Source: [Clostridium] saccharolyticum WM1
GTDB lineage: Bacteria > Bacillota > Clostridia > Lachnospirales > Lachnospiraceae
NCBI RefSeq assembly: GCF_000144625.1
Contig: NC_014376.1
Coordinates: forward strand, 1,736,001 to 1,800,000
Length of the DNA stretch: 64,000 nucleotides
Reading direction: 5' to 3'
Both the position numbers and the translations under genes were made by a program. Below the pieces are notes generated by a model. That model was not told where the DNA came from. It ran no database searches and saw nothing but the letters and a program-made list of their open reading frames with translations. This document shows positions 44,143 through 59,825 of this stretch, piece by piece. Position 1 is the stretch's first letter. Each line of letters opens with the position of its first letter.

Positions 44143-44476
44143 GATGGCATCCTGCCGTTGCCGCTAAAATCATGGATGAATTTCAATAAAAAAGGAAAGA
44201 ACAATCAGTGCCATGCAAAAACCAAAGGGATTGTAAACAGGCCTCCGTAAATTTTTGTCTGAGATCTGCAATGATTATGGAAGGAGTTATAAAATATTAC
44301 CAAAAAGGCACCGGTAGAAATGTAACTATTGCACAAATCGAATAATAATTACGCCAATAAGGACATGAGTCCTTTTGATAATGAAAAATTATTGCTACAA
44401 TGTGGATATTTCAAGAGCATAAGAGATATAAGTCCTTTTACCATGGGCAGGGCTTGAAATGAAAGAGGTAGAATGC
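44143..44476. other. non-coding gap before yjjI
   Basis: No gene is seen. The useful elements are a small hairpin AAGGAC-ATGA-GTCCTTTT around 44361-44376, a near repeat of its second arm (AAGTCCTTTT) around 44430, an imperfect inverted repeat ATAAT-GAAAA-ATTAT around 44379-44394, and TACAAT at about 44396-44401 as a likely -10 box. The promoter of the nucleoside operon is probably here. Confidence 0.4.
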
Positions 44477-45973
44477 ATGAATAAAATATTAAACATTGTA
44501 ACATCAAAAGGGCTGACTTATGAGCAGAAGGTGGTAGCTCTGGCGCATGCAGCGGAAAATAGTTTAGAGGTTCTTTCCATACCGGAGAAGACACGCCGCT
44601 ACATGGATATAGGAGCGATCTGTGATTTGGATGAGGGACACGCCCCTTATCGTCCGAGATACGTCATGCCGGATTATGAAAAAGCGGTAAAAACCGGCTG
44701 TGAATTTTTACAGCTGGAAGCGCCAAAAGATCTTGATGAAGTGCTGCAGTTTTTGACGATTCTGTACCGTCATGTCCCATCCATTACCAGCTATCCTGTT
44801 TATCTGGGCAACATTGATAAGCTCATTGAGCCGTTTCTTGATGGGGTGACAGATGAGGAGGCGGAAAAGAAGCTTAAGCTGTTTCTTGTTTATCTGGACC
44901 GGACCATAACCGACGGCTTCTGCCATGCCAATCTGGGTCCGGAGGAGACAAGGGCAGGAACATTGATTTTAAAGCTTGAAAAGGAGCTTCAGAATGCGGT
45001 TCCCAATTTAACGCTGAAGTATGACAGGGATATTACACCGGACTCCTATGCAGAGCTTGCCCTTTACACCTCTTTGTACTGTGCCAATCCGGCTGTCTGT
45101 AACCACAGGATGCACAAGGATACCTATGGAGATTACGGCATATCCAGCTGCTATAATATCCTTCCAGTGGGCGGCGGTTCCTACACGCTGGTAAGGATTG
45201 TACTTCCAAAGCTGGCATCGGAAGCTGAGAATAAGGAACAGTTTTTATCAAAGCTTTTACCTGACTGCCTTGATTCCATGGGAAATTATATGAATGAAAG
45301 AATTCGTTTTCTGGTGGAAGAATCCAACTTCTTTGAAACATCGTTTCTTGCCAGGGAGGGCTTTATTTCCAGAGATAAATTCCTTGCCATGTTCGGAGTC
45401 GTAGGGTTGGCGGAATGCACAAATATGCTGATGGAAGATGGGGAAAAGACCTATGGCCGCAGGGAAGAAGCCGATGATTTGGCAGAGCAGATCATGGAGG
45501 TTATTGCAGATTATGCAAAAACGGCCAAGGCACTTTATTCGGAGGTTTTTGACTTTCATTTCGCACTTCATGCCCAGGTGGGAATTGATTCGGACCACGG
45601 AATAACCTCAGGAGTACGGATTCCTGTAGGAATGGAACCGGATTGCATGTATGACCACCTTCGCCACAGCGCCAGGTTCCACAAGTTTTTTCCCACGGGC
45701 TGCGCGGATATCTTTTCCTTTGATCCCACGGCAAGAAATAATCCGGCTGCCATGCTGGATATCGTAAAAGGAGCATTTTCTCTGGGGGACAAATACATAA
45801 GCTTTTACGCTTCCGACAGTGATCTGGTCCGGATTACAGGTTATCTGGTGAAACGGAGTGAGATGGAAAAATATTATGAGGGGGAAGCAGTCCTTCAGAA
45901 TACGGTACATCTGGGTGGAGATAATTACCGCAATGCTCATCTGGAAAACCGGAAAGTCAGGGCGCTGACGTGA
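44477..45973 (+). CDS. yjjI: YjjI-family glycyl radical enzyme
   Basis: A 498-residue member of the YjjI glycyl-radical family, which has no assigned reaction. The barrel Cys is expected in ISSCYNILPVGGGSYT (Cys about residue 225), and the radical-bearing Gly in VRITGYLVKRSEME near the C-terminus (Gly about residue 455), with an unusual 43-residue tail after it. Oxygen-sensitive, it needs the activase encoded with a four-base overlap downstream. ATG 44477 with AAAGAGGT at 44462-44469 is the start rather than ATG 44459. It opens a long co-directional run of nucleoside uptake and cleavage genes, so a nucleoside- or (deoxy)ribose-derived substrate is a reasonable inference. Confidence 0.88.
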   Translation: MNKILNIVTSKGLTYEQKVVALAHAAENSLEVLSIPEKTRRYMDIGAICDLDEGHAPYRPRYVMPDYEKAVKTGCEFLQLEAPKDLDEVLQFLTILYRHVPSITSYPVYLGNIDKLIEPFLDGVTDEEAEKKLKLFLVYLDRTITDGFCHANLGPEETRAGTLILKLEKELQNAVPNLTLKYDRDITPDSYAELALYTSLYCANPAVCNHRMHKDTYGDYGISSCYNILPVGGGSYTLVRIVLPKLASEAENKEQFLSKLLPDCLDSMGNYMNERIRFLVEESNFFETSFLAREGFISRDKFLAMFGVVGLAECTNMLMEDGEKTYGRREEADDLAEQIMEVIADYAKTAKALYSEVFDFHFALHAQVGIDSDHGITSGVRIPVGMEPDCMYDHLRHSARFHKFFPTGCADIFSFDPTARNNPAAMLDIVKGAFSLGDKYISFYASDSDLVRITGYLVKRSEMEKYYEGEAVLQNTVHLGGDNYRNAHLENRKVRALT

Positions 45974-46839
45974 GAGCCCCGGTTAACAAAATGATTCCCT
46001 TAAGTGTTGTGGATGGACCAGGCTGCCGGACAGCAGTGTTTGTTCAGGGCTGCAATATCGCCTGCGCTTACTGCCATAACCCGGAAACGCAGAGGCTGTG
46101 CAGCGGCTGCGGCCTTTGCATCGGTCAGTGTCCTTCGTCCGCATTGTCTCTTTCTGGTAAATCTGTACTATGGAATGAGGCAGTCTGTATCCAGTGCGAT
46201 CATTGCATCCGGATCTGTCCCCATCATTCGTCGCCAAAGGTCCGGTGGCTGGAGGCGTCGGAGGTCTGGGCACAGATAGAAAAAAACATGCCGTTTATCC
46301 AGGGAATCACGGTATCCGGCGGAGAATGCAGCCTGTATCCTGAGTTCCTCACAGAATTATTTACGCTTGCAGGAAAAGCCGGGCTTTCCTGTTTTCTGGA
46401 CAGCAACGGCTGCGTGGATTTTTCCGTATTTCCCGGACTCATGGCTGTGACGGACAACGTGATGCTGGATGTAAAAGCGTGGGATTTCCAAGTGTTTCAT
46501 CGGCTGACCGGAGGTGATAACAGTGATGTTAAGAAAAATCTGAAATATCTGGCACAGATGGGAAAATTGTATGAGGTGAGGCTTGTCTGTCTGGATGAGG
46601 AAACTGCTCCCGGCACCGGTCCGTCAGAAAGAAGAGAAGTGGATATGGAGGAGGTCATTGCCGGAGTGGCAGATGAGGTCAGACCTTATCTGGAAAAATT
46701 CAGGCTGAAGCTTATTGCATTCCGAAATTTTGGAGTAAGAGGAAGACTGGAAACAAGAAAAAGTCCGCCGCCGGAACAAATGGAGAGGCTGAAGGAGCTG
46801 GCTGTTACGTGCGGATTTAAAAATATACAAATTGTATAA
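45970..46839 (+). CDS. yjjW: YjjW-family glycyl radical enzyme activase (radical SAM)
   Basis: The 289-residue protein would abstract H from the Gly of YjjI using S-adenosylmethionine. The radical-SAM cluster motif is CNIACAYC (residues about 29-36, CxxxCxxC), followed by two ferredoxin-type clusters, CSGCGLCIGQCP (about 44-55) and CIQCDHCIRICP (about 74-85), as in other GRE activases, and VSGGE binds SAM. GTG 45970 overlaps the yjjI stop codon, giving translational coupling. In E. coli the homologous pair lies next to deoCABD. Confidence 0.9.
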   Translation: MRAPVNKMIPLSVVDGPGCRTAVFVQGCNIACAYCHNPETQRLCSGCGLCIGQCPSSALSLSGKSVLWNEAVCIQCDHCIRICPHHSSPKVRWLEASEVWAQIEKNMPFIQGITVSGGECSLYPEFLTELFTLAGKAGLSCFLDSNGCVDFSVFPGLMAVTDNVMLDVKAWDFQVFHRLTGGDNSDVKKNLKYLAQMGKLYEVRLVCLDEETAPGTGPSERREVDMEEVIAGVADEVRPYLEKFRLKLIAFRNFGVRGRLETRKSPPPEQMERLKELAVTCGFKNIQIV

Positions 46840-46863
46840 ATAAAAAGTGGAGGAATTATATTT

Positions 46864-47922
46864 ATGAAAGCAAAAAAAGGGATTGTGTTTGGTTTAGCAG
46901 CTGTAATGGCATTGTCACTTACGGCGTGTGGTAGCGGAAAAACAGAAGTTGCAAATACCCAGGAGGAGACTTCCGGAGGAAAGAGCAGCTTTTCTGTGGC
47001 AATGATTACGGATACAGGCGGAATCAATGACCAGTCCTTTAACCAGTCTGCATGGGAAGGTTTAACTGAGTTAAAGAAAAGGACCGGTGCTGAGGTAAAT
47101 TACATCGAGTCAAAACAGGCCTCAGACTTTGTAACAAATCTGGAAAGACTGGGAGACAGCGGTGCCGATTTATTATGGGGAGTCGGATACGCCTGTGCGG
47201 ATGCAGTGCTGGAGGCAGCCGGAGGCAATCCGGATATCCAGTATGCAATTATCGACAATGCTTATGAGGAAACACCTTCCAACGTTACCGGCGTTATGTT
47301 CCGGGCCCAGGAACCCTCTTTTCTTGTAGGCTATGTGGCCGGACGGACGACACAGACCGGAAAAGTGGGATTTGTAGGCGGTATTTCCTCAGGTCTGATT
47401 GACCAGTTCCAGTATGGCTTTGAGGCCGGCGTGAAATATGCGGCCAAAGAGCTTGGAAAAGAGATTGATGTTTCCGTGCAGTATGCGGAGAGCTTCAGCG
47501 ATGCGGCAAAAGGAAAGGCCATTGCCACAAGGATGTATTCTGATGGCTGCGATGTTATCTATCATGCCGCAGGCGGAACAGGAACCGGCGTCATTGAGGC
47601 TGCAAAGGAAGCGGATCAGTGGGTGATCGGTGTTGACCGGGACCAGGCATATCTGGCTCCGGAAAACGTACTGACATCAGCTCTTAAGTTAGTAGGTAAA
47701 GCGGTACAGGAAGTGTCTGAGCAGGCAATAAACGGGCAGAAAATCGGCGGTCAGACGCTTACCTTCGGCTTAAAGGAAGAATGTGTAGGAATCCCTGTGG
47801 AACACGGCAACATGCCGGAAGGGGTTTATGAAGATACGTTAAAGGTAGAGGACAAAATAAGAAACGGGGAACTGACACCGCCTACCACCAATGAGGAATA
47901 CCAGGCATTTATCGCGAAATAG
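46864..47922 (+). CDS. BmpA/PnrA-type nucleoside-binding lipoprotein
   Basis: A 352-residue exported lipoprotein with lipobox LTAC (Cys about residue 20) and a BMP/PnrA domain: VAMITDTGGINDQSFNQSAWEGL (residues about 42-64) is the hallmark start, with WGVGYACADAV, GFVGGISSGLIDQFQYGFEAGVKYA and VIYHAAGGTGTGVIEAA following. Members bind purine or pyrimidine nucleosides and pass them to Nup-type ABC permeases, which are encoded next. GGAGG lies before ATG. An intercistronic hairpin follows, which may raise its level over the membrane subunits. Confidence 0.9.
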   Translation: MKAKKGIVFGLAAVMALSLTACGSGKTEVANTQEETSGGKSSFSVAMITDTGGINDQSFNQSAWEGLTELKKRTGAEVNYIESKQASDFVTNLERLGDSGADLLWGVGYACADAVLEAAGGNPDIQYAIIDNAYEETPSNVTGVMFRAQEPSFLVGYVAGRTTQTGKVGFVGGISSGLIDQFQYGFEAGVKYAAKELGKEIDVSVQYAESFSDAAKGKAIATRMYSDGCDVIYHAAGGTGTGVIEAAKEADQWVIGVDRDQAYLAPENVLTSALKLVGKAVQEVSEQAINGQKIGGQTLTFGLKEECVGIPVEHGNMPEGVYEDTLKVEDKIRNGELTPPTTNEEYQAFIAK

Positions 47923-47935
47923 GAGAGAAAAATTG

Positions 47936-47963
47936 CACCGCAGGGCCATAAAGACCTGCGGTG
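47936..47963 (+). repeat. intercistronic hairpin after the binding-protein gene
   Basis: CACCGCAGG (47936-47944) and CCTGCGGTG (47955-47963) make a 9-bp perfect stem with no T-run. It probably protects the upstream binding-protein mRNA from 3' decay. Confidence 0.55.
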
Positions 47964-47989
47964 TAAAAACGAAAGGAGAACGTATTGAG

Positions 47990-49525
47990 ATGTCCACGGG
48001 AAACAGCGATTATGCGGTCCAGATGCACGGAATCACAAAACGGTTCGGGGCATTTTACGCTTTGAAGGATATGAGTCTGGATGTTAAGAAGGGCAGCATT
48101 CATTCTCTTTTGGGTGAAAACGGTGCGGGAAAATCGACACTGATGAATGTACTGTATGGATTGTATCAGGCCGATGAAGGAGAAATTTTTATCAATGGAA
48201 AAAAAGTGGAGATAAAAAACCCTAATACGGCCATAGCAAACGGCATTGGTATGGTTCATCAGCATTTTATGCTGGTGGAGGATTTCACAGTCACGCAGAA
48301 TATTATTTTGGGTAATGAGACTACCTCCCGCGCAGGTGTTATAGATATGAAAAAAGCCAGAAAAAAGATTCTGGAAATTGTGGAAAAATATGGTCTGGAG
48401 GTGGACCCCGATGCCAGGATCTCTGATATTTCTGTGGGAATGCAGCAGAGGGTGGAGATATTAAAAGCATTGTACCGGGGAGCGGAATTATTGATCCTTG
48501 ATGAGCCAACCGCAGTATTGACTCCACAGGAAATAGAAGATCTCTTATCCATCATGCGCAATCTTGTAAAGGATGGGAAAGCCATCATCATCATTACTCA
48601 TAAGTTAAAGGAAATCAAAGCATCCTCTGATACCTGTACGGTCATCCGCCGGGGCGAATACATTGATACGGTTTCCGTAGAAAAGGTTTCAGGCCAGGAA
48701 CTGGCGACCCTCATGGTAGGCCATGAAGTGAAGCTGGTGGTAGATAAGACACCGGCAAAGCCGGGAGAAACGGTATTGGAAATCAAAGGCCTTGTTGTGA
48801 AAAATGAGAAGAAGCTGGACGCAGTTAAGGGTCTGGATTTAACGGTCCGCAAGGGTGAAATCGTGGGGATCGCCGGAATTGACGGCAATGGACAAAAGGA
48901 ACTGGTGGAAGCCATCAACAGTCTGGTGCCGGCGGAAAAGGGCAGCATTATTGTCTGCGGAAAAAATATTACCAATACAGATCCAAGAACGGTGATAGAC
49001 AGCGGGGTCAGCATCATTCCTGAGGACAGGCAGAAGAGAGGCCTTGTACTGGACTTTACTGTGAATGAGAACGCCATACTGGAACGGTGCCGCAAAGAGC
49101 CGTTTTCCAGAAAAGGAATCTTAAACAGAAAGAGCATGGAAGAGTTTACGAAAGCCATCATTGAGGAATATGACGTACGTCCGGAGGACTGCGGCTCCAG
49201 AAGGGTGGGGGAGCTTTCAGGAGGAAACCAGCAAAAGGTCATCATCGGGCGGGAAGTATCCATGAATCCGGAGATACTGATTGCCGTGCAGCCAACGAGA
49301 GGACTTGATGTGGGAGCGATCGAAACGGTTCATAAGACTTTGATCAACGAAAGAGATAAAGGAAAAGCGGTGCTTTTGATTTCTTTTGAACTGGATGAGG
49401 TAATGAATGTTTCCGATACCATTGCGGTGATTTACGACGGGAAGATTCAGGACACGTTTCATCAGGGAACCGTAGATGAAAATACAATCGGTCTGTTAAT
49501 GGCAGGAGGAAAGAATCATGGATAA
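47990..49525 (+). CDS. nucleoside ABC transporter, dual ATPase (NupO/YufO-like)
   Basis: A 511-residue tandem ATPase. Domain 1 has Walker A GENGAGKST, signature ISVGMQQR and Walker B LLILDEPTAVLTPQE. Domain 2 has a degenerate Walker A (GIAGIDGNGQKE), signature ELSGGNQQK and Walker B ILIAVQPTRGLDVGA. This asymmetric pattern is normal for the rbsA/nupO group. It drives the two permeases encoded with 8-base overlaps downstream. ATG 47990 with GAAAGGAGA is chosen; the longer frame from 47891 overlaps the binding-protein gene and hairpin. Confidence 0.92.
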   Translation: MSTGNSDYAVQMHGITKRFGAFYALKDMSLDVKKGSIHSLLGENGAGKSTLMNVLYGLYQADEGEIFINGKKVEIKNPNTAIANGIGMVHQHFMLVEDFTVTQNIILGNETTSRAGVIDMKKARKKILEIVEKYGLEVDPDARISDISVGMQQRVEILKALYRGAELLILDEPTAVLTPQEIEDLLSIMRNLVKDGKAIIIITHKLKEIKASSDTCTVIRRGEYIDTVSVEKVSGQELATLMVGHEVKLVVDKTPAKPGETVLEIKGLVVKNEKKLDAVKGLDLTVRKGEIVGIAGIDGNGQKELVEAINSLVPAEKGSIIVCGKNITNTDPRTVIDSGVSIIPEDRQKRGLVLDFTVNENAILERCRKEPFSRKGILNRKSMEEFTKAIIEEYDVRPEDCGSRRVGELSGGNQQKVIIGREVSMNPEILIAVQPTRGLDVGAIETVHKTLINERDKGKAVLLISFELDEVMNVSDTIAVIYDGKIQDTFHQGTVDENTIGLLMAGGKNHG

Positions 49526-50642
49526 AACGGTTAAGCTTATAAAAAAGCCATTGACAATGACTTTGATCGCTGTTTTCTTTGGTTTCATTGTGGCGGGAAT
49601 CATACTCGCAGCGGCAGGATATCCGCCGGTCCATTCACTGACCGTCTTATTTGACGGAGTCTTTTCCAGTCCGAAACACATTTCCAATGTAATGATTAAA
49701 AGCACGCCTTTGATTCTTACGGGGATCGGAGTTGCATTTGCGTTTAAGACCGGACTATTCAACATCGGAGCCGAAGGCCAGTTTATTATGGGCTGTGTGG
49801 CTTCTACTGTGGTTGGCATTCTTTTCGATTTTCCGCCGGTGATCCAGATTCCCCTGGTCCTTTTCGCTGGCGTGGCTGCAGGAGCAGTCTATGGAGGAAT
49901 CGCCGGTTTCTTAAAGGCGAAATTCGGCATTCACGAAGTTCTTACCAGCATAATGTTAAACTGGATCGCTCTTTATTTCTCCAATTATATATGCACGTTA
50001 AAACGGTTTCATAAGCCGGATACCATCGGAACTTACCCGATCAACCGTTCCGGCTATACCATGATTTTGGGAAACTACAAGATAACGGAGGCGGGAAAGA
50101 CAGCACTTGCACAAAATGAATTTTTGCGCCAAACGGTTCTGAAAACTGATGTAAACGTGGGGATTTTTATTGCAGTCATTCTGGCCGTTTTTATCTGGTT
50201 TCTTCTCTATAAAACGGCAAAAGGATTTGAACTGAGAGCAGTGGGCTTTAACAAGAGTGCGGCAGAATTTTCGGGAATTTATGTCAATAAAAACATCCTT
50301 CACTCCATGCTCATTTCCGGAGCTATCTGCGGATTGGCGGCAGCTCTTTATATTACAGGAAATTCTCCTCACGGGATCGCGACTTTGGCAGCCTTTGAAA
50401 ATACAGGCTTTAACGGATTGTCGGTCTGTCTGATCGCAGCCAGCTCTCCCGTGGGATGTATTTTTGCAGGACTGCTGTTCGGCGGTCTGATTTATGGAGG
50501 TCAGTCCCTGCAGTATGAAGTGGGAGCTCCTTCAGAAATTATCAATATCGTCATTGGTGTTATTGTATTTTTTGTTGCGCTTACCCGCATAATCCCGCCG
50601 CTGGTGGACCGTTTTTCGAAGGGAGGAAAAAAACATGCTTAA
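49518..50642 (+). CDS. nucleoside ABC transporter permease (NupP/YufP-like)
   Basis: A 374-residue membrane protein of the branched-chain amino-acid/ribose permease superfamily, with about ten hydrophobic segments. FNIGAEGQFIMGCVAS (residues about 79-94) is a strongly conserved segment in this subfamily, as are KAKFGIHEVLTSIMLNWIALYFSNY and GFNGLSVCLIAASSPVGCIFAGLLFGGL near the end. ATG overlaps the ATPase gene by eight bases with AGGAGGAAAG as ribosome site. Together with the next gene it forms the channel. Confidence 0.91.
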   Translation: MDKTVKLIKKPLTMTLIAVFFGFIVAGIILAAAGYPPVHSLTVLFDGVFSSPKHISNVMIKSTPLILTGIGVAFAFKTGLFNIGAEGQFIMGCVASTVVGILFDFPPVIQIPLVLFAGVAAGAVYGGIAGFLKAKFGIHEVLTSIMLNWIALYFSNYICTLKRFHKPDTIGTYPINRSGYTMILGNYKITEAGKTALAQNEFLRQTVLKTDVNVGIFIAVILAVFIWFLLYKTAKGFELRAVGFNKSAAEFSGIYVNKNILHSMLISGAICGLAAALYITGNSPHGIATLAAFENTGFNGLSVCLIAASSPVGCIFAGLLFGGLIYGGQSLQYEVGAPSEIINIVIGVIVFFVALTRIIPPLVDRFSKGGKKHA

Positions 50643-51552
50643 CAGTCTGATGCTGTTTGCAGGTATTACACTTATGTATTCCACGCCTTTGGTATTTGCT
50701 GCGCTGGGAGGAGTAGTGTCGGAGCGGTCCGGCGTTACCAATATTGGAATTGAAGGAATGATGACCATTGGAGCGGTTACAGGAGCCACAGTTGGCTATT
50801 ATTCAGGAAGTGCCTGGGCAGGATTTTTTGCGGCCGGTCTGGCAGGAGGTATCATTGCCCTTCTTCATGCCGTTGCATGCATTACATGTAAGGCGGACCA
50901 GACGATTTCCGGCATTGCCATTAATTTAATCGGACCCGGTGTTGCTCTGTTTGCCTGCCGGCTTCTTTTTGACGGCGCAACCATGTCATTGCCTGTACCC
51001 AATAAGATTCCGAAGCTGTTTGGAAATTTAATCACAGGGCCGGTTCAGAATTTAAATGTGGATGTTACCGTTGTCATTGCTCTTATATTAGCGGTTTTCC
51101 TGTGGTTTTTACTTTATAAAACAAAATGGGGCCTTCATATCCGGGCCGTGGGAGAGCATCCGGCAGCAGCAGATACCATGGGGCTTCATGTATATAAAAT
51201 CAGGTATGTATGCGTTTTGGTATCCGGAGTTTTGGCCGGTCTTGGAGGAGCGTCCATGACCCTTGCCATTATCCCTCAGTTTACCCCCACAGCCATCAGC
51301 GGACAGGGATTTATCGCATTGGCGGCAGTGATTTTTGGAAAGTGGACACCCCACGGGGCGTATGGTGCCTGTCTGTTATTTGGAGCAGCCCAGGCCCTGA
51401 CCGTTACCCTGGGAGGAGGAAGATTTGCGGTTCCTTCATCTGTTCTGGCCATGCTGCCATATCTCATTACCATTGTTATCCTGATTCTGTTTGTGGGAAA
51501 ATCCTCTGCGCCAAAAGCCAGCGGGCAGCCATACGAAAAGGATGCCAGATAA
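50635..51552 (+). CDS. nucleoside ABC transporter permease (NupQ/YufQ-like)
   Basis: The 305-residue second permease, with about eight to nine hydrophobic segments and family stretches TNIGIEGMMTIGAVTGA (residues about 40-56), WGLHIRAVGEHPAAADTMGL (about 163-182) and GQGFIALAAVIFGKWTPHGA. ATG 50635 overlaps the preceding stop by eight bases, with GGGAGGAAA upstream. It closes the transporter set; 81 nt later the Crp/Fnr regulator begins. Confidence 0.91.
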   Translation: MLNSLMLFAGITLMYSTPLVFAALGGVVSERSGVTNIGIEGMMTIGAVTGATVGYYSGSAWAGFFAAGLAGGIIALLHAVACITCKADQTISGIAINLIGPGVALFACRLLFDGATMSLPVPNKIPKLFGNLITGPVQNLNVDVTVVIALILAVFLWFLLYKTKWGLHIRAVGEHPAAADTMGLHVYKIRYVCVLVSGVLAGLGGASMTLAIIPQFTPTAISGQGFIALAAVIFGKWTPHGAYGACLLFGAAQALTVTLGGGRFAVPSSVLAMLPYLITIVILILFVGKSSAPKASGQPYEKDAR

Positions 51553-51633
51553 GAAAGGATTCCCGGTGTATCAATTACGTAAAATAAAAAATAATAGGAA
51601 GATGAAAAAGAAGGAATCGGAAGGAGGAAGAAC

Positions 51634-52353
51634 GTGAACGATGCGATGTCTTTAATCAATGAGCTTCGCAGTGAGTCCCGGGATTATTTAAATAATTATC
51701 TGGCCAATGCACCGAAATGGCTCCTGGAGGCGTTTAAAATCGTAAAATTAAAAAAAGGCACCACCTTTATTCATGAAAATGAAACCGTGGATACCATTTA
51801 CATTCTGGTGGAGGGCATCGTAAAGGCAACAGATTACCGGGTTCAGGAGATTACCTACGATTATACAAGGTTTTATCCGGTGGAGGTGTTCGGGGCCATG
51901 GAATTTCTCATGGGATTTGATAAGTACCGGACCACTTTGATGACCGAGACGGAATGCCGGTTTCTATGTGTGTCCAAGGACCAGTTCAGCCGCTGGATGC
52001 TGTCTGATATTCATGCGGTTTTAGAACAGGTGAAGGCGATGGGGATCTATCTACTGGAGCAGGTAAGGAAGGAACGGTTGTTTTTATTTTTACAGGGCAG
52101 TGACAGGCTGTTTCTGCTCTTCCTGCAGATTTACCGCAAATCTTCCCGCCGGGGAATCTGCCGCATACAGCTGACAAGAAAAGATTTGTCCAACAGCACA
52201 GGGCTTTGCGTAAAGACCGTGAACCGGTGCATCGGACATATGGAGGAGGAGGGGTATATCTCCCGGGAGGGAAGGACGATTCTCATTGACGAGGAACAAT
52301 ACCAGCGGATCAAGTCAGTCGTAGCAGAAAAAATTGATGAGAATGAAATTTAG
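51634..52353 (+). CDS. Crp/Fnr-family transcriptional regulator
   Basis: The 239-residue protein has a cyclic-nucleotide-binding-like beta-barrel (residues about 20-130; [26 protein letters not shown]) and a C-terminal winged helix (about 165-225; [37 protein letters not shown]). No N-terminal Cys cluster for Fe-S as in FNR is present, so a small ligand, perhaps a nucleoside or its phosphate, may be the signal. GTG 51634 follows AGGAGGAAG. Its place between transporter and phosphorylase genes suggests it controls this operon. Confidence 0.88.
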
Positions 52354-52370
52354 GGGAAGGTGGATTGGAA

Positions 52371-53147
52371 ATGACAAATTATTCTGAAACAGAAGGAAAA
52401 CAGTATCACCTCCAGGTGGGAAACGGAGATGTGGGGAAGTATGTTATCCTGCCCGGAGATCCCAAACGGTGTGCTCTGATTGCAAGATATTTTGACAATC
52501 CCAGGCTGATAGCAGACAGCAGGGAGTTCGTAACCTATACCGGTACCTTAGACGGTGAACTGGTCAGTGTGACTTCCACGGGAATCGGGGGACCGTCGGC
52601 TGCAATTGCCATGGAAGAACTGGTGATGTCCGGTGCGGACACCTTTGTCCGTGTCGGTACCTGCGGCGGAATGGATACAGAGGTAAAAAGCGGAGAACTG
52701 GTAATTGCAAACGGTGCCATCCGCATGGAGGGAACCAGCCGGGAGTACGCTCCAATCGAGTTTCCGGCGGTCGCGGATTTTCAGGTGACAAGTGCTTTGG
52801 TATCGGCGGCAAAATCGCTGGAAAAACCCCATCATGTGGGGGTTGTCCAGTGTAAGGATTCATTTTATGGGCAGCATTCACCGGAGACAAAACCAGTATC
52901 CTATGAACTCTTAAATAAATGGAAGGCCTGGGTGGAACTTGGCTGCAAGGCTTCGGAGATGGAGTCGGCGGCACTCTTTGTTGTTGCCAGTGCCCTAAAG
53001 GTGCGGGCAGGTTCCGTATTCCTGGTGATAGCCAATCAGGAACGGGCCAGACTCGGCCTTGATAATCCCGTTATCCATGATACGGATGGAGCCATCCGCA
53101 CGGCTATAGAGGCGATACGCCTGATGATCCGTATGGATAAAAAATAA
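52371..53147 (+). CDS. udp: uridine phosphorylase
   Basis: Uridine phosphorylase splits uridine (often also deoxyuridine) with phosphate to uracil and (deoxy)ribose 1-phosphate. The 258-residue NP-I family protein has [11 protein letters not shown] (phosphate site, residues about 26-36), [15 protein letters not shown] (about 69-83), RVGTCGGM (about 92-99) and [11 protein letters not shown], and ends with the ESAALF motif (MESAALFV) that binds the ribose. ATG 52371 with AAGGTGG is preferred over TTG 52365. It lies 17 nt after the regulator and 16 nt before deoD. Confidence 0.92.
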
Positions 53148-53163
53148 AAAAGGAGGCCATCAA

Positions 53164-53871
53164 ATGGAGATGACACCAACCGCCCACAATGGGGCAAATA
53201 AAGGAGAAATAGCAAAAACAGTATTAATGCCTGGAGATCCGTTACGGGCAAAGTATATTGCGGAGACGTATCTGGAAAATCCGGTTAAAGTAACCTCGGT
53301 CCGTAACATGCTTGGATTTACAGGGACTTATAAGGGAAAAGAACTTTCTGTCATGGGAGGAGGAATGGGGATGCCGTCCATGGGCATCTATTCCTATGAG
53401 CTGTATCACTTTTATGATGTGGACCAGATTATCCGCATTGGTTCCGCCGGTGCGTTGCAGGACCATGTGAAGCTTATGGATGTGGTTATTGCTATGGGAG
53501 CCTGTACGGATTCCAATTACGCTTATCAGTATGGCCTTCCTGGTACATTTGCTCCCACTGCTGATTATGAGCTTCTGGTGAAAGCGGTAAAAGCAGCGGA
53601 AAAGCAGGGAACAAAAGTGGTTGTGGGCAATGTCCTTTCCAGTGATATTTTCTATCATCACGATTCCGGGGTCAATGACAAATGGCGCAGCATGGGGGTT
53701 CTTGCTGTGGAAATGGAAACAGCAGCCCTTTACATGAATGCAGCGGCGGCGGGAAAAAAAGCTCTTTGTTTGCTTACGATTTCTGATTTGATTTATGGGG
53801 AAGAAAAGCTAAGTGCCTTGGAGCGGCAGCTGGGATTTGGAAAAATGATGGAAATTGCCCTGGAATTGTAG
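53164..53871 (+). CDS. deoD: purine-nucleoside phosphorylase DeoD-type
   Basis: DeoD cleaves purine (deoxy)nucleosides with phosphate to the base and (deoxy)ribose 1-phosphate. The 235-residue length and the NP-I motifs fit the hexameric type: TVLMPGDPLRAKYIAE (residues about 20-35), GGGMGMPSMGIYSYEL (about 64-79), RIGSAGAL (about 87-94) and VEMETAALY (about 179-187), with SDLIYGEE holding the catalytic Asp near residue 202. AAAAGGAGG precedes ATG. Confidence 0.94.
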   Translation: MEMTPTAHNGANKGEIAKTVLMPGDPLRAKYIAETYLENPVKVTSVRNMLGFTGTYKGKELSVMGGGMGMPSMGIYSYELYHFYDVDQIIRIGSAGALQDHVKLMDVVIAMGACTDSNYAYQYGLPGTFAPTADYELLVKAVKAAEKQGTKVVVGNVLSSDIFYHHDSGVNDKWRSMGVLAVEMETAALYMNAAAAGKKALCLLTISDLIYGEEKLSALERQLGFGKMMEIALEL

Positions 53872-53928
53872 ATCTCAGAGAATGCTGGACAGGGTTTACA
53901 GGAGAAGGCAGCAGAAAGGAATCAGGAT

Positions 53929-54396
53929 ATGAAAGAAAAATCTGAGGAACATGTAAAAACGGGTGAAGAGGAAGCCGGGGCTGAGCTTCCTGTTAAAGAA
54001 ATGATCCGTCAGGCGTATGAGGCTATGGCCAGGGCTTATACACCATATTCCGGGTTTAAAGTCGGGGCGGCGCTTTTGGCAGCCGACGGTACTTTCTATC
54101 AGGGGTGCAATATTGAAAATGCAGCCTATACTCCCAGTAATTGCGCAGAACGTACGGCATTTTTTAAGGCGGTCAGCCAGGGAGTGAGAGAATTCAAAGC
54201 TATTTGCATCGTTGGGGGAAAAGAGGGGATTCCCATGGGAATTACCCCCCCCTGCGGTGTCTGCCGCCAGGTGATGATGGAATTTTGTGATCCGGAGACA
54301 TTCCGGATCATATTGGCGGCGGGAAAGGAAGAATATAAAATGTTTTCTTTAAAAGAACTGCTTCCTCTGGGGTTTGGACCGGAGGATCTTGGCTAA
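53929..54396 (+). CDS. cdd: cytidine deaminase
   Basis: Cytidine deaminase turns (deoxy)cytidine into (deoxy)uridine, which the uridine phosphorylase of the same operon can split. In this 155-residue protein the zinc site is seen as CNIENAAYTPSNCAERTA (with CAE: Cys ligand and catalytic Glu) and PPCGVCRQV (two Cys ligands), as in the short tetrameric enzymes. An acidic N-terminal extension of about 23 residues before the usual start is unusual. It lies 57 nt after deoD with AAAGGAA near ATG. Confidence 0.93.
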   Translation: MKEKSEEHVKTGEEEAGAELPVKEMIRQAYEAMARAYTPYSGFKVGAALLAADGTFYQGCNIENAAYTPSNCAERTAFFKAVSQGVREFKAICIVGGKEGIPMGITPPCGVCRQVMMEFCDPETFRIILAAGKEEYKMFSLKELLPLGFGPEDLG

Positions 54397-54462
54397 GAGA
54401 CAAATTGCGCTTTTTTCTGATCTGTGATAAACTGATACCAACTGGCAGGAGGTATGAGAATA

Positions 54463-55374
54463 GTGGAAGACAGAAGAAATGCAAGGAAGGCGTTTTCAAG
54501 AGTGGGATTTGGATATGGAGCATTCCTTCTTGTAACGATTGTAATACAGCTTGAGGTAGGAGTCATTGCTCTTTTACTGTCCCGGATTGGAATGGAAATA
54601 ACCTTTGGGAACTGGTACATGGTATTTGTTTCCCTGGCGAATTACCTTGCAGGAGGCGTAATTGCCTGTCTGATTGTAAAGGATATGCCGGTTTTATTCA
54701 GACCAAAAGCAAGAAAAGCAGGAGCAGGAATGCTGGTTTCCGGATTCCTGGTCTGTATGAGCGCCCTGTTTTTTGGAAATCTTATGGGGCAGGGCTTAAT
54801 GAGCCTTGTCTGTACTCTGTTGGGAAAGCCTATGGTTAATCCGGTAGAGGAAGTAATGAAGGGATTAAGTACCTGGTCGATTTTTGTTACCATGGTGGTA
54901 ATGGCCCCTGTCTGTGAAGAAATTCTGTTTCGTAAGGTCCTGATCGACAGGATCCGACTTTATGGGGATAAAGCGGCGATCCTGGCATCCAGCGTTGTCT
55001 TTGGATTAAGCCATGGAAATTTCTACCAGTTCTTTTATGCCTTTTTGATTGGTCTGGTGTTGGCCTATATTTATATTCAGACGGGAAAGCTCCGCTATAC
55101 CATAATTTTTCACATGATCATAAATTTTCTCGGCTCCATCGCAGCCCTCCATATTGAAGACCATCCGCTGCTTACCACAGGCTATTCAATTTTAATGCTT
55201 GGAGCGGTGATTGCCGGAACCATTTTGTTTTTTATCAATCATAAAAAGCTGTTGTTTTACCAGGGGTTTATGGAAAACTGGGGCAAAGGAGCATGGAAAG
55301 TTCTTTTTTTCAACCTTGGGATGACCTTGTTTTTTCTTCTTTCAGCCGTGACCTTTGTGGTTTCTTTGGTTTAA
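54463..55374 (+). CDS. CPBP-family intramembrane metalloprotease
   Basis: A 303-residue membrane protein with about eight hydrophobic segments and the CPBP (CAAX-protease/bacteriocin-processing, Abi) motifs: EEILFR (residues about 151-156), FGLSHGNFYQF (His about 187) and HMIINFLG (His about 223). Members cleave membrane-bound prenyl- or signal-type peptides; several confer bacteriocin self-immunity. GTG 54463 is chosen, since AGGAGG at 54447-54452 is only one base from ATG 54454. It lies 66 nt after cdd and has no obvious tie to nucleosides. Confidence 0.85.
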   Translation: MEDRRNARKAFSRVGFGYGAFLLVTIVIQLEVGVIALLLSRIGMEITFGNWYMVFVSLANYLAGGVIACLIVKDMPVLFRPKARKAGAGMLVSGFLVCMSALFFGNLMGQGLMSLVCTLLGKPMVNPVEEVMKGLSTWSIFVTMVVMAPVCEEILFRKVLIDRIRLYGDKAAILASSVVFGLSHGNFYQFFYAFLIGLVLAYIYIQTGKLRYTIIFHMIINFLGSIAALHIEDHPLLTTGYSILMLGAVIAGTILFFINHKKLLFYQGFMENWGKGAWKVLFFNLGMTLFFLLSAVTFVVSLV

Positions 55375-55427: not shown

Positions 55428-55452
55428 TGTAGTTAGCAAAAATACTGTGATT

Positions 55453-55717
55453 AGGAGTAGTAAGCTGTCTGAAACATGCAGAGAGCCGGCGAGTGGTGAA
55501 AGCCGGTTGGGGATGTCAGCTGAACTGGCCTTTGAGTAGCGTGCTGAAGGAAGCTCTGTTTCTGAGTAGGCATTGCCGGTGTCCCGACCGTTACAGCGGG
55601 GGGATATGTTTTTCTATATCCAGTGAGAGCATACGAAACTTGTATGAAATAGAGTGGTACCACGCGGTAGATTCTGCGTCTCTATGGCCGTATAAACGGT
55701 TAGAGGCGCATTTTTTT
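55453..55717 (+). promoter_or_regulatory. T-box riboswitch, Leu specifier, with terminator
   Basis: The leader has AGAGAGCCGG in stem I, the specifier context GAA-CUG-GCCUUUGAG with CUG (Leu) at 55525-55527, the T-box AGAGUGGUACCACGCGG (55651-55667) and a terminator pairing TGCGTCTCTA (55675-55684) with TAGAGGCGCA (55701-55710) before seven T. Uncharged tRNA-Leu should allow read-through into leuS. Confidence 0.92.
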
Positions 55718-55797: not shown

Positions 55798-58212
55798 ATG
55801 GCAGCATCATACAACCACAGCGCCATTGAGAAAAAATGGCGGGAAAACTGGGCAAAGAGCCCCATCAATGTTGATGATGGAAAGAAAAAGAAATATTACT
55901 GTCTGGATATGTTCCCATATCCCTCAGGAAGCGGCCTTCATGTGGGCCATTGGAGAGGCTATGTAATATCCGATGTTTGGAGCCGGTATCAGATTTTAAA
56001 GGGACATTATGTGATCCACCCCATGGGCTGGGATGCTTTTGGCCTGCCGGCAGAGAACTACGCCATCAAAATGGGAGTCCATCCGGCAAAATCCACGGCT
56101 GAGAACGTAAGTAATATCAAACGCCAGATCAATGAGATCGCAGCCGTTTATGACTGGGATATGGAGGTCAACACCACGGATCCGGAATTTTATAAATGGA
56201 CCCAATGGATTTTTGTCCAGATGTTTAAAAAGGGCCTGGCCTATGAAAAGGAATTCCCCATCAACTGGTGTCCATCCTGTAAAACGGGACTTGCAAATGA
56301 AGAAGTGGTCAACGGCTGCTGCGAACGGTGCGGAACCGGAGTTACAAAGAAGAATTTAAGACAGTGGATGTTAAAAATCACCGCTTATGCAGACCGTCTG
56401 CTGGATGACTTGGATAAGCTTGACTGGCCGGAAAAGGTCAAAAAGATGCAGACGGAATGGATTGGAAAATCTTATGGAGCCGAGGTTGACTTTAAGGTAG
56501 ACGGAAGAGAGGAGGCCGTCACGGTTTATACCACCAGACCGGATACCTTATACGGAGCCACCTTTATGGTGCTTGCGCCGGAGCACGCTCTTGCCTCAGG
56601 CCTTGCCACTCCGGAAAATAAAGAGGCAGTTGAGAAGTATATCTACGATGCTTCCATGAAGTCAAATGTGGACCGTCTTCAGGATAAGGAAAAGACCGGC
56701 GTATTTACCGGTAGCTATGCGGTTAACCCTTTAAGCGGTGCCAAGGTACCCATCTGGCTTTCCGATTACGTCCTTGCCGACTACGGTACCGGTGCCATCA
56801 TGTGCGTGCCGGCTCATGATGACAGGGACTTTGAGTTTGCGAAGAAGTTCAACATTCCCATTATTCAGGTTATTGCAAAGGACGGCAGGGAAATTGAAAA
56901 TATGACCGAGGCATATACCGAGGCAAGCGGAACCATGATCAATTCCGGTGAGTGGAATGGAATGGAGTCCTCTGTCCTTAAAAAAGATGCTCCGGCAATG
57001 ATTGAGGAACGTGGTCTTGGAAAGAAGACCGTAAACTTTAAGCTTCGTGACTGGGTATTTTCCAGGCAGCGTTACTGGGGAGAGCCTATTCCCATTATCC
57101 ATTGCCCCCACTGCGGCAATGTGCCGGTACCGGAAGACCAGCTTCCCCTTACCCTTCCTGAAGTGGAAAGCTACCAGCCTACCGGCACGGGAGAATCACC
57201 TCTGGCGGACATTGACGAATGGGTGAACACCACCTGCCCGGTGTGCGGCGCTCCGGCAAAAAGAGAGACGAACACCATGCCCCAATGGGCTGGTTCCTCC
57301 TGGTACTTCCTGCGCTATGTAGACAGTCACAATGACCAGGAACTGGTATCCAAAGAAAAAGCGAAAAAATATCTTCCGGTGGATATGTACATCGGCGGCG
57401 TGGAGCATGCCGTGCTTCATCTTCTGTATTCCCGTTTCTATACCAAATTTTTAAACGACATCGGTGTGGTTGACTTTGACGAACCATTTACCAAGCTGTT
57501 TAACCAGGGGATGATCAACGGAAAAAATGGTATCAAAATGAGCAAGTCCAAGGGAAATGTTGTATCTCCTGATGACCTGGTTCGTGACTATGGCTGTGAC
57601 GCTCTCCGTATGTATGAGCTTTTTGTAGGACCGCCGGAGCTTGATGCAGAGTGGGATGACAGGGGAATTGAAGGCGTCGGCCGTTTCCTGAACCGTTTCT
57701 GGAAACTGGTGACGGAAAGCAGTAATAAGGATGTGGAGCCCACCAGGGAAATGCTTCGTCTGCGCAGCAAGCTGATTTTTGATATTGAGCAGCGTTTCAG
57801 CCAGTTTAACTTAAATACGGTAATTTCCGGATTTATGGAATATAACAATAAATTTATTGAAATGGCTCAGAAGACCGGTGGCATTGACAAAGAGACCTTA
57901 AAGGCCTTTGTGGTTCTGGTTGCTCCTTTTGCACCTCATATTGGTGAAGAACTGTGGCAAAGGCTTGGCGGCATGACTTCTGTATTCCACGCACAGTGGC
58001 CGGTATGTGATGAAGAAGCCATGAAGGAAGACGAAATTGAAGTTGCGGTCCAGGTAAACGGAAAGACAAGGGCAGTGGTAAAGCTTCCTGTAAACGTATC
58101 TAAGGAAGAGGCTATTGAGGCAGGAAAGGCTTTGATCCCGGATAAGATAACCGGAACCATTGTTAAGGAAATCTATGTTCCTGGAAGAATTGTAAATATT
58201 GTGTGCAAGTAA
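55798..58212 (+). CDS. leuS: leucyl-tRNA synthetase
   Basis: The 804-residue class I synthetase charges tRNA-Leu. The ATP-binding HIGH motif reads HVGH in PYPSGSGLHVGHWRGY (residues about 40-55) and the KMSKS motif is intact in GIKMSKSKGN (about 580-589). The zinc-binding segment CPSCKTGLANEEVVNGCCERCG (broken here for length at residues about 159-180) and the CP1 editing domain with TTRPDTLYGATFMVLAP are present, as is a second Cys pair, CPHCGN. AAAGGAGG lies before ATG. It is monocistronic under a Leu-specific T-box. Confidence 0.97.
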   Translation: MAASYNHSAIEKKWRENWAKSPINVDDGKKKKYYCLDMFPYPSGSGLHVGHWRGYVISDVWSRYQILKGHYVIHPMGWDAFGLPAENYAIKMGVHPAKSTAENVSNIKRQINEIAAVYDWDMEVNTTDPEFYKWTQWIFVQMFKKGLAYEKEFPINWCPSCKTGLANEEVVNGCCERCGTGVTKKNLRQWMLKITAYADRLLDDLDKLDWPEKVKKMQTEWIGKSYGAEVDFKVDGREEAVTVYTTRPDTLYGATFMVLAPEHALASGLATPENKEAVEKYIYDASMKSNVDRLQDKEKTGVFTGSYAVNPLSGAKVPIWLSDYVLADYGTGAIMCVPAHDDRDFEFAKKFNIPIIQVIAKDGREIENMTEAYTEASGTMINSGEWNGMESSVLKKDAPAMIEERGLGKKTVNFKLRDWVFSRQRYWGEPIPIIHCPHCGNVPVPEDQLPLTLPEVESYQPTGTGESPLADIDEWVNTTCPVCGAPAKRETNTMPQWAGSSWYFLRYVDSHNDQELVSKEKAKKYLPVDMYIGGVEHAVLHLLYSRFYTKFLNDIGVVDFDEPFTKLFNQGMINGKNGIKMSKSKGNVVSPDDLVRDYGCDALRMYELFVGPPELDAEWDDRGIEGVGRFLNRFWKLVTESSNKDVEPTREMLRLRSKLIFDIEQRFSQFNLNTVISGFMEYNNKFIEMAQKTGGIDKETLKAFVVLVAPFAPHIGEELWQRLGGMTSVFHAQWPVCDEEAMKEDEIEVAVQVNGKTRAVVKLPVNVSKEEAIEAGKALIPDKITGTIVKEIYVPGRIVNIVCK

Positions 58213-59471: not shown

Positions 59472-59729
59472 TTAGCAGCAGAAGTTATTTCCGCCACCAA
59501 AGCCGCCGCAGCAGCACAGAAGAATGATGATCCAAATCCAACTGCATCCATCATTTCCGCAACCGCCTCCGCAACCGCCGCCGCAACTGCCGCCGCAACC
59601 GCCGCTGCCGCCACCACAGAAGCACAGGATAAGGATCAGCCAAATCAGATTGAAGCCACATCCACTATTGCACCCTCCGTTGTTGCAATCGCATCCGCAT
59701 CCACAGTTAGTTGCTGCCAGATCACTCAT
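59472..59729 (-). CDS. Gly/Cys-rich chorion-class HCB-like protein
   Basis: An 85-residue protein beginning MSDLAATNCGCGCDCNNGGC. It alternates Cys/Gly-rich blocks with two short hydrophobic segments (FNLIWLILILCFC and WIWIIILLCCC, residues about 28-40 and 67-78) and ends NNFCC. In clostridial genomes such proteins are annotated as chorion class high-cysteine HCB protein 13; their role is unknown, with a spore coat or membrane-attached structural part as likely options. ATG 59729 follows GGAGG. A CATACACT sequence about 45 bp upstream resembles a sigma-E -10, but no matching -35 is clear. Confidence 0.8.
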   Translation of the reverse strand: MSDLAATNCGCGCDCNNGGCNSGCGFNLIWLILILCFCGGGSGGCGGSCGGGCGGGCGNDGCSWIWIIILLCCCGGFGGGNNFCC

Positions 59730-59825
59730 ATTGGTTCCTCCAAATAATTTGTTTACACTGTAAGTGTATGAAGGCCAGCTTGCCACTGTTTCCACATTTT
59801 TCTCGAAATTTTAGATTTGATGTGA

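Follow-up and report, generated by a model that had tools for sequence, protein, structure and literature searches.

The 64,000-nucleotide stretch analysed here (the window) covers positions 1,736,001 to 1,800,000 of contig NC_014376.1, the single contig of the 4.66-Mb genome of [Clostridium] saccharolyticum WM1. On its + strand, at positions 44459-54396, lies a cluster of ten genes headed by yjjI. This gene encodes an oxygen-sensitive glycyl radical enzyme that is 93% identical to the YjjI of Lacrimispora brassicae and 91% identical to that of Lacrimispora celerecrescens, and the genome was assigned to Lacrimispora on this basis. It is followed by yjjW, bmpA, an ABC transporter ATPase gene, two permease genes, crp, udp, deoD and cdd (Table 1). 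A first-pass annotation of the window had described a four-base overlap of yjjI and yjjW and a one-strand cluster with an importer, a Crp/Fnr regulator, udp, deoD and cdd, and both descriptions were confirmed. Profile searches recover the content of a nucleoside uptake and phosphorolysis operon: a Bmp-type importer together with udp, deoD and cdd. The Bmp/PnrA-type protein encoded by bmpA is presumably specific for nucleosides. Six more Bmp matches, one of them weak, were found in the genome; hence, the importer of the cluster is not the only one.

Table 1. Genes of the yjjI cluster and elements of its control region (positions in the window).
Feature	Position	Strand	Evidence and remarks
Palindrome AAGGACATGAGTCCTT (AAGGAC-N4-GTCCTT), proposed operator of the cluster's Crp/Fnr-type regulator	44359..44374	+	exact match, ~100 bp upstream of yjjI
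Proposed -10 box TACAAT	44396..44401	+	21 nt past the palindrome; inferred start point ~44408
yjjI, glycyl radical enzyme	44459..45973	+	TIGR04040 679.9 bits (cut-off 498.3); PF11230 710.1 (cut-off 23)
yjjW, radical-SAM activase of YjjI	45970..46839	+	TIGR04041 354.4 bits (cut-off 250.2)
bmpA, nucleoside-type (Bmp/PnrA) binding protein	46864..47922	+	PF02608 290.3 bits
Importer ABC transporter ATPase	47990..49525	+	PF00005, two stretches; start picked by eye
Importer permease 1 (BPD_transp_2)	49518..50642	+	PF02653 122.3 bits
Importer permease 2 (BPD_transp_2)	50635..51552	+	PF02653 134.9 bits
crp, Crp/Fnr-family regulator	51634..52353	+	PF00027 + PF13545; recognition helix KTVNR
udp, uridine phosphorylase	52365..53147	+	TIGR01718 325.3 bits (cut-off 280.3)
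deoD, purine-nucleoside phosphorylase	53164..53871	+	TIGR00107 300.3 bits (cut-off 232.25)
cdd, cytidine deaminase	53929..54396	+	TIGR01354 139.7 bits (cut-off 113.65)

The likely start of yjjI is the second ATG, at 44477, which was also the first-pass choice and, judged by eye, has the better ribosome-binding site (AAAGAGG). The gap between yjjW and bmpA is 24 nt, and that between bmpA and the ATPase gene, counted to the start picked by eye, is 67 nt. Permease 1 overlaps both the ATPase gene and permease 2 by 8 nt, and the gaps before crp, udp, deoD and cdd measure 81, 11, 16 and 57 nt. The earlier remark that no terminator is visible holds insofar as no terminator-like stem is listed on the + strand in the intergenic gaps from yjjI to cdd, in a scan that is itself weak (15 stems found vs. 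12.2 expected in shuffles).

In an alignment of the upstream DNA of six relatives, the palindrome is almost unchanged. Among the 119 yjjI loci collected (see below), the 1.5 kb upstream of yjjI contain a site with at most two mismatches in 21 of 26 loci that also gave a crp-type hit, compared to 4 of the 93 others (Fisher p = 6e-15, a value that ignores kinship). Control DNA of 557,228 bases contains the palindrome 0 times at one mismatch or fewer and 16 times at up to two, and in loci where crp precedes yjjI, the palindrome sits before crp. A -10-like hexamer follows 20-22 nt downstream of 19 of the 21 sites (L070 and L071 fail), vs. 121 of 4200 random positions; the 21 sites come from related loci, and the comparison provides no independent probability. 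In the window, the palindrome is centered at about -41.5 from the inferred start point. A center near -41.5 is the geometry of class II activation by Crp/Fnr proteins. The recognition helix [KR]TV[NS]R was found in 14 of 27 crp-type hits; the remaining 13 gave no helix in the motif search. On these sequence features, the palindrome probably belongs to the regulator encoded within the cluster. Just past the inferred start, the operator has a half-matching second copy, GAGATATAAGTCCTTT (44423-44438), which is unchanged in L033, L161 and L162; this element may be a second regulator site.

The palindrome and the -10 box stand before yjjI, and crp lies inside the cluster, which argues for one transcript: from the predicted start, it would probably run through yjjIW into crp. 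Together with the absence of listed terminator-like stems, these elements suggest that yjjIW is included in a single transcript and that the cluster probably forms a single unit controlled by its own regulator. Genome-wide, RAGGACNNNNGTCCTY occurs at two places, before yjjI and once inside an open frame (the reversed control pattern occurs at four); hence, the Crp/Fnr-type protein looks like a local, dedicated regulator. In a regulon search over eight genomes, most of the other places inspected fall in coding sequence. A gene for a membrane protein that resembles a CPBP protease by eye (54454-55374) begins 57 nt after cdd on the same strand, and the transcript may extend as far as this gene.

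In the same-genus genomes tested, yjjI, crp and bmpA are present either together or not at all. Among 24 other same-genus genomes, six contain yjjI, and all seven yjjI-positive genomes, that of the window included, carry orthologues of both crp and bmpA (at least 90% identity). Twelve of the 18 yjjI-negative genomes were checked for the two genes: none has an orthologue, only distant homologues or none being found (best bmpA 35%, best crp 26%). The cluster is gained and lost as a unit within the genus, and this co-occurrence indicates clustering beyond chance.

A wider survey covered 119 yjjI loci: 80 picked by likeness, E. coli K-12, five plasmid-collection records, 32 loci from further genomes and the window. 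The likeness-picked loci are those kept of at least 571 confirmed YjjI-encoding stretches. At 75% YjjI identity, the loci form 64 clusters, and yjjW lies within 3 kb of yjjI in 63 of them. The nucleoside gene set comprised bmpA, cdd, udp, deoD, deoA, deoB, deoC, add, psuG, rih and nupC/G/X, and 28 stretches of 20 kb, taken at round coordinates in nine yjjI-positive genomes, served as controls. By tblastn, a nucleoside gene lies within 10 kb of yjjI in 31/64 clusters (60/119 loci), within 5 kb in 24/64, and in 0/28 controls (Fisher p 6.6e-7 for 31/64). A check with hidden Markov models (HMMs) that disregarded ATPase, kinase and crp hits linked 34/64 clusters, vs. four weak hits in the 28 controls (deoD at 58, cdd at 41 and permeases at 38 and 27 bits; p = 5e-4). 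It added L106 (bmpA, 102 bits) and the permeases of L159 and L160. The link to nucleoside genes proposed by the first-pass annotation was, thus, observed far outside this genome when yjjI neighborhoods were set against controls.

A quick tree requires at least 11 changes of linkage state (34 clusters linked, 25 not and five unscored on short contigs: L074, L092, L151, L153 and L157). In the window's own clade of 21 clusters, 19 of the 20 scored are linked, L053 solely via a deoC 8 kb off on the other strand. An even draw of 398 genomes from the window's phylum yielded a strong YjjI match (at least 566 bits) in 25, the source genome included, and a fragment in one more. By tblastn and with the window's locus set aside, a nucleoside gene lies within 10 kb in 4/24 of these loci (L134, L135, L137 and L145; Fisher p 0.04 vs. 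controls). Two newly drawn Coriobacteriia (L155 and L156) both have several nucleoside genes. Among three spirochaete draws, the full-size L158 has none and two are on short contigs, L159 with importer permeases only. Stretches from Bacteroidales, Proteus, Vibrio, Aeromonas, Haliovirga, Chloroflexota and many Clostridium contain no nucleoside gene, save the deoC of L053. The link is seen in Lachnospiraceae, Tissierellia, Bacilli, Coriobacteriia, E. coli and metagenome-assembled genomes (MAGs) of Elusimicrobiota and Spirochaetaceae, but is not universal; the earlier claim that it is kept across phyla is not supported as a rule, given the low share in the even draw and the lineages with none. 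In part of the family, the link between yjjI and nucleoside genes is genuine and regulated.

Bacteroidales MAG loci (L040, L046, L048-L053 and L062) encode a YjjI 63-68% identical to that of the window, with no nucleoside genes apart from the distant deoC already mentioned; horizontal spread or binning mix-ups are possible. One MAG, E07__bin214, has two yjjI loci (L060 and L080, contigs of this MAG), one after a udp/bmpA/importer cluster and one between bmpA and the ATPase gene.

The arrangements differ widely. The window type is yjjIW-bmpA-nup-crp-udp-cdd; Tissierella and an Erysipelothrix MAG have crp-yjjIW-bmpA-nup-cdd, with deoA as well in a Tissierellia MAG. In Lachnospiraceae, the radical pair sits within the importer genes (bmpA-yjjIW-ATPase), and an Elusimicrobiota MAG carries psuG-yjjIW-bmpA-nup. 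Texcoconibacillus shows crp-yjjIW-hydrolase-ribokinase-hydrolase and Neobacillus crp-yjjIW-nupG. In Coriobacteriia, nup-bmpA-deoD-deoB faces psuK-(psuG)-(crp)-yjjIW, with deoC next in several; several Clostridium have psuK-psuG a few kb from yjjI, and in E. coli, yjjIW is divergent from deoCABD. What these arrangements have in common is the nucleoside or its ribose, not one base. As the pathways are generally understood, the hydrolase-ribokinase, PsuG and DeoB routes would share ribose 5-phosphate as an end product. In L147 (11491-12060) and L150 (7781-8353), genes that resemble xanthine phosphoribosyltransferase by eye lie 12-24 nt after yjjW on the same strand.

The E. coli pair belongs to the same TIGR04040 and TIGR04041 families, over the cut-offs, and has the same adjacency to nucleoside breakdown genes. 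However, it is divergent from deo and listed as FNR-activated, whereas the pair of the window comes first in an importer-phosphorylase operon that encodes a Crp/Fnr-type regulator of its own. The enzymes of the deo and psu operons (deoCABD and psuGKT) appear as neighbors of yjjI; to our knowledge, neither pathway as described includes a glycyl radical enzyme.

E. coli yjjI and yjjW are tabulated as FNR-activated (PMC2634741), and yjjI stands in an FNR chromatin immunoprecipitation (ChIP) table, in the block right before "directly repressed", which was taken to mean directly activated (PMC3688515). A CRP ChIP peak lies between yjjI and deoC (PMC4287617), yjjW and yjjI are listed for the anaerobic transcriptome of Yersinia intermedia (PMC3792023), and yjjI is also tabulated in PMC6561319 and PMC9068703. 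A role in nitrogen metabolism, together with an RNR-like domain, has been proposed for YjjI, which shares an expression cluster with narG (PMC3228777). The word YjjI is absent from a gut metalloenzyme review (PMC11574389). Among the matches listed from the open-licence literature, no paper ties YjjI to nucleosides, and YjjI, nucleoside, deoC and ribose do not occur together in any.

These reports bear on the alternative that survives best, although it is rather unlikely: YjjI would serve a general anaerobic task, such as the nitrogen-metabolism role proposed in PMC3228777, and its nucleoside neighbors would be incidental or shared only through Crp/Fnr-type control. The many yjjIW pairs that stand alone agree with this, as do the response of E. 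coli yjjI to FNR and the narG expression cluster. Against it are the several unlike nucleoside arrangements, the 0/28 of the tblastn controls, the position of yjjIW within importer operons and its module-wise presence in the genus.

The protein itself points to ribonucleotide reductase (RNR). In the 504-residue numbering, the predicted thiyl residue is Cys231 and the radical residue Gly461 (RITG461Y), and both are kept in 64/64 clusters. The predicted fold is the glycyl radical barrel, and class III RNR (NrdD) is nearest both by profile and by predicted fold. YjjI scores 40.6 bits with Pfam NRDD (looser cut-off, 26.2) and 20.1 with the NrdD equivalog TIGR02487, far under the cut-off of 326.35. 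A domain search at E <= 0.001 returned only PF11230 and NRDD: neither an ATP cone nor PF02901 (PFL) was found. The ATP cone is lacking in some NrdD as well. In a sequence search of solved structures, the single sequence gave no match and the profile a best E of 0.018.

YjjI differs from both comparison groups. With ~500 residues, it is shorter than NrdD (677-712), and it has a single invariant cysteine (C231, 64 clusters), vs. six in five NrdD (C178, C365, C624, C627, C638 and C641). An invariant second cysteine and the zinc cysteines are missing. C178 and Asn384 have mechanistic roles in NrdD; no conserved YjjI cysteine aligns near C178, and the Asn384 column is a variable position in YjjI. 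The one-to-six ratio of invariant cysteines argues that YjjI is not a class III RNR. PFL-type eliminases have C-x-E as their active-site motif. YjjI reads CYN instead (N233 in 64/64 clusters), compared to CIE in YbiW, and is shorter than the PFL types (YbiW/PflD, glycerol/propanediol dehydratase and CutC). On sequence and predicted fold, YjjI is an RNR-like radical enzyme that lacks the marks of known RNR. Its candidacy as the cell's anaerobic RNR was rejected on the case of E. coli K-12, in which nrdD and yjjI coexist. In the source genome, a weak second match (L002) looks PFL-like by its CC motif, by eye.

A second alternative, which we consider improbable, is that YjjI is a reductase at the nucleoside level, converting imported ribonucleosides to 2'-deoxynucleosides in the manner of class III RNR and feeding DeoC. 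The nearest relative and fold are in its favor, and 42/43 yjjI-positive genomes carry deoC, which in several loci is a neighbor of yjjI (deoC and deoB counts exclude the fragmentary G241 and G111 and G456, which has a stop in frame). However, deoC is nearly as common without yjjI (29/32), and the cysteine count and the columns at C178 and Asn384 oppose a reductase. The partly conserved Cys55 leaves it a small opening.

In a marginally weaker alternative, the target of YjjI is not the sugar but the base set free from it (uracil, thymine or a purine). The enzymes encoded by cdd, udp and psuG are each on a route to uracil, and L147 and L150 carry the phosphoribosyltransferase-like gene described above. 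Nevertheless, the partners span purine and pyrimidine routes, rih-rbsK or deoB-deoC handle the sugar, and among the yjjI loci preT gave one match (L036) and preA none, these being the only base-degradation genes sought.

The first-pass suggestion that YjjI acts in place of DeoC and DeoB, neither of which is encoded in the cluster, is very improbable and contradicted as a general rule: it was rejected since the genome encodes both, with three deoC (C1:1169892, 2048158 and 4366997) and one deoB (C1:1941616), all outside the window; L035, L070, L097, L109 and L110 carry yjjI alongside deoC and deoB; and deoB, over the cut-off in 35/43 yjjI-positive vs. 25/32 yjjI-negative genomes, falls below it in eight of the former but also in seven of the latter.

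The best explanation, which we hold to be rather probable, is that the cluster forms one anaerobic nucleoside-use unit with YjjI as a non-reductive relative of RNR. The Crp/Fnr-type protein would bind AAGGAC-N4-GTCCTT and activate transcription from ~44408 through yjjIW, the importer, the regulator, udp, deoD and cdd. Nucleosides would enter via the importer and be converted by Cdd, Udp and DeoD to base and (deoxy)ribose 1-phosphate, with the pentose completed by the DeoB and DeoC encoded elsewhere. YjjW would install the radical on Gly461, and Cys231, as a thiyl radical, would abstract hydrogen from an imported nucleoside or from the ribose or ribose phosphate derived from it, possibly at a ribose carbon such as C3', by analogy with RNR. 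The radical would most likely be resolved by elimination or bond cleavage and not by reduction, since the second active-site cysteine of NrdD and its zinc cysteines have no invariant equivalents in YjjI. As a catabolic relative of RNR, YjjI may in this way give access to an oxygen-independent branch in the breakdown of nucleosides or ribose.

Several observations weigh against this explanation. About half of the clusters have no nearby nucleoside gene; linkage is found in 25/36 clusters represented by likeness-picked loci vs. 9/28 others, and 20 of the 24 even-draw loci are unlinked, six of them on stretches shortened by contig ends or retrieval limits. Apart from ABC ATPase hits and a few genes common to two or three related loci, no other partner recurs among the unlinked loci. 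The presence of deoC and deoB does not track yjjI. The palindrome motif is not enriched as such in the window or the genome: the window has four matches at up to two mismatches vs. 2.66 expected, only the one at yjjI being exact. A general scan for a palindrome plus -10 box was positive in 12/119 loci, seven of them with the AAGGAC-N4-GTCCTT motif, vs. 18/1232 control tiles, and revealed no operator shared by the other yjjI loci. As for the protein, the fold that brings YjjI close to class III RNR is common to all glycyl radical enzymes and indicates no substrate, and the PFL profile, built on two sequences, is a weak comparator. Cys55 (50/64 clusters) and Cys155 (44/64) are partly kept, and part of the family may have a second cysteine.

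On balance, YjjI likely acts in nucleoside or pentose breakdown. That its chemistry is non-reductive is somewhat less secure, though still favored, and the odds that it targets the sugar moiety of a nucleoside or the direct product of one are about even. The RNR-like predicted fold strengthens the idea of a nucleoside- or ribose-derived substrate, and the best reading of YjjI is an RNR-like lyase or dehydratase of radical type whose substrate would be a nucleoside or the ribose within it. The fully specified version is tentative: a catabolic sibling of RNR, a glycyl radical lyase or dehydratase that would abstract a ribosyl hydrogen without reduction from a free nucleoside, perhaps a modified one (for example 2'-O-methylated), or a ribose phosphate, in an anaerobic route for RNA sugars under a dedicated Crp/Fnr-type regulator at GGAC-N4-GTCC.

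Downstream of the cluster, a T-box leader (Rfam RF00230, 125.4 bits) at 55438-55686 lies upstream of a gene at 55798 named by eye as leucyl-tRNA synthetase-like. On the - strand, a short reading frame (59472-59795) combines a very high Gly and Cys content with hydrophobic stretches.

The YjjI family of glycyl radical enzymes has a name but no assigned reaction, and even E. coli K-12 encodes a member. The nucleoside linkage, the apparently dedicated regulator and the RNR-like, cysteine-poor site narrow its substrate to a short, assayable list. If the proposal is true, it would represent a new use of the ribonucleotide reductase fold and a new step in the anaerobic breakdown of RNA.

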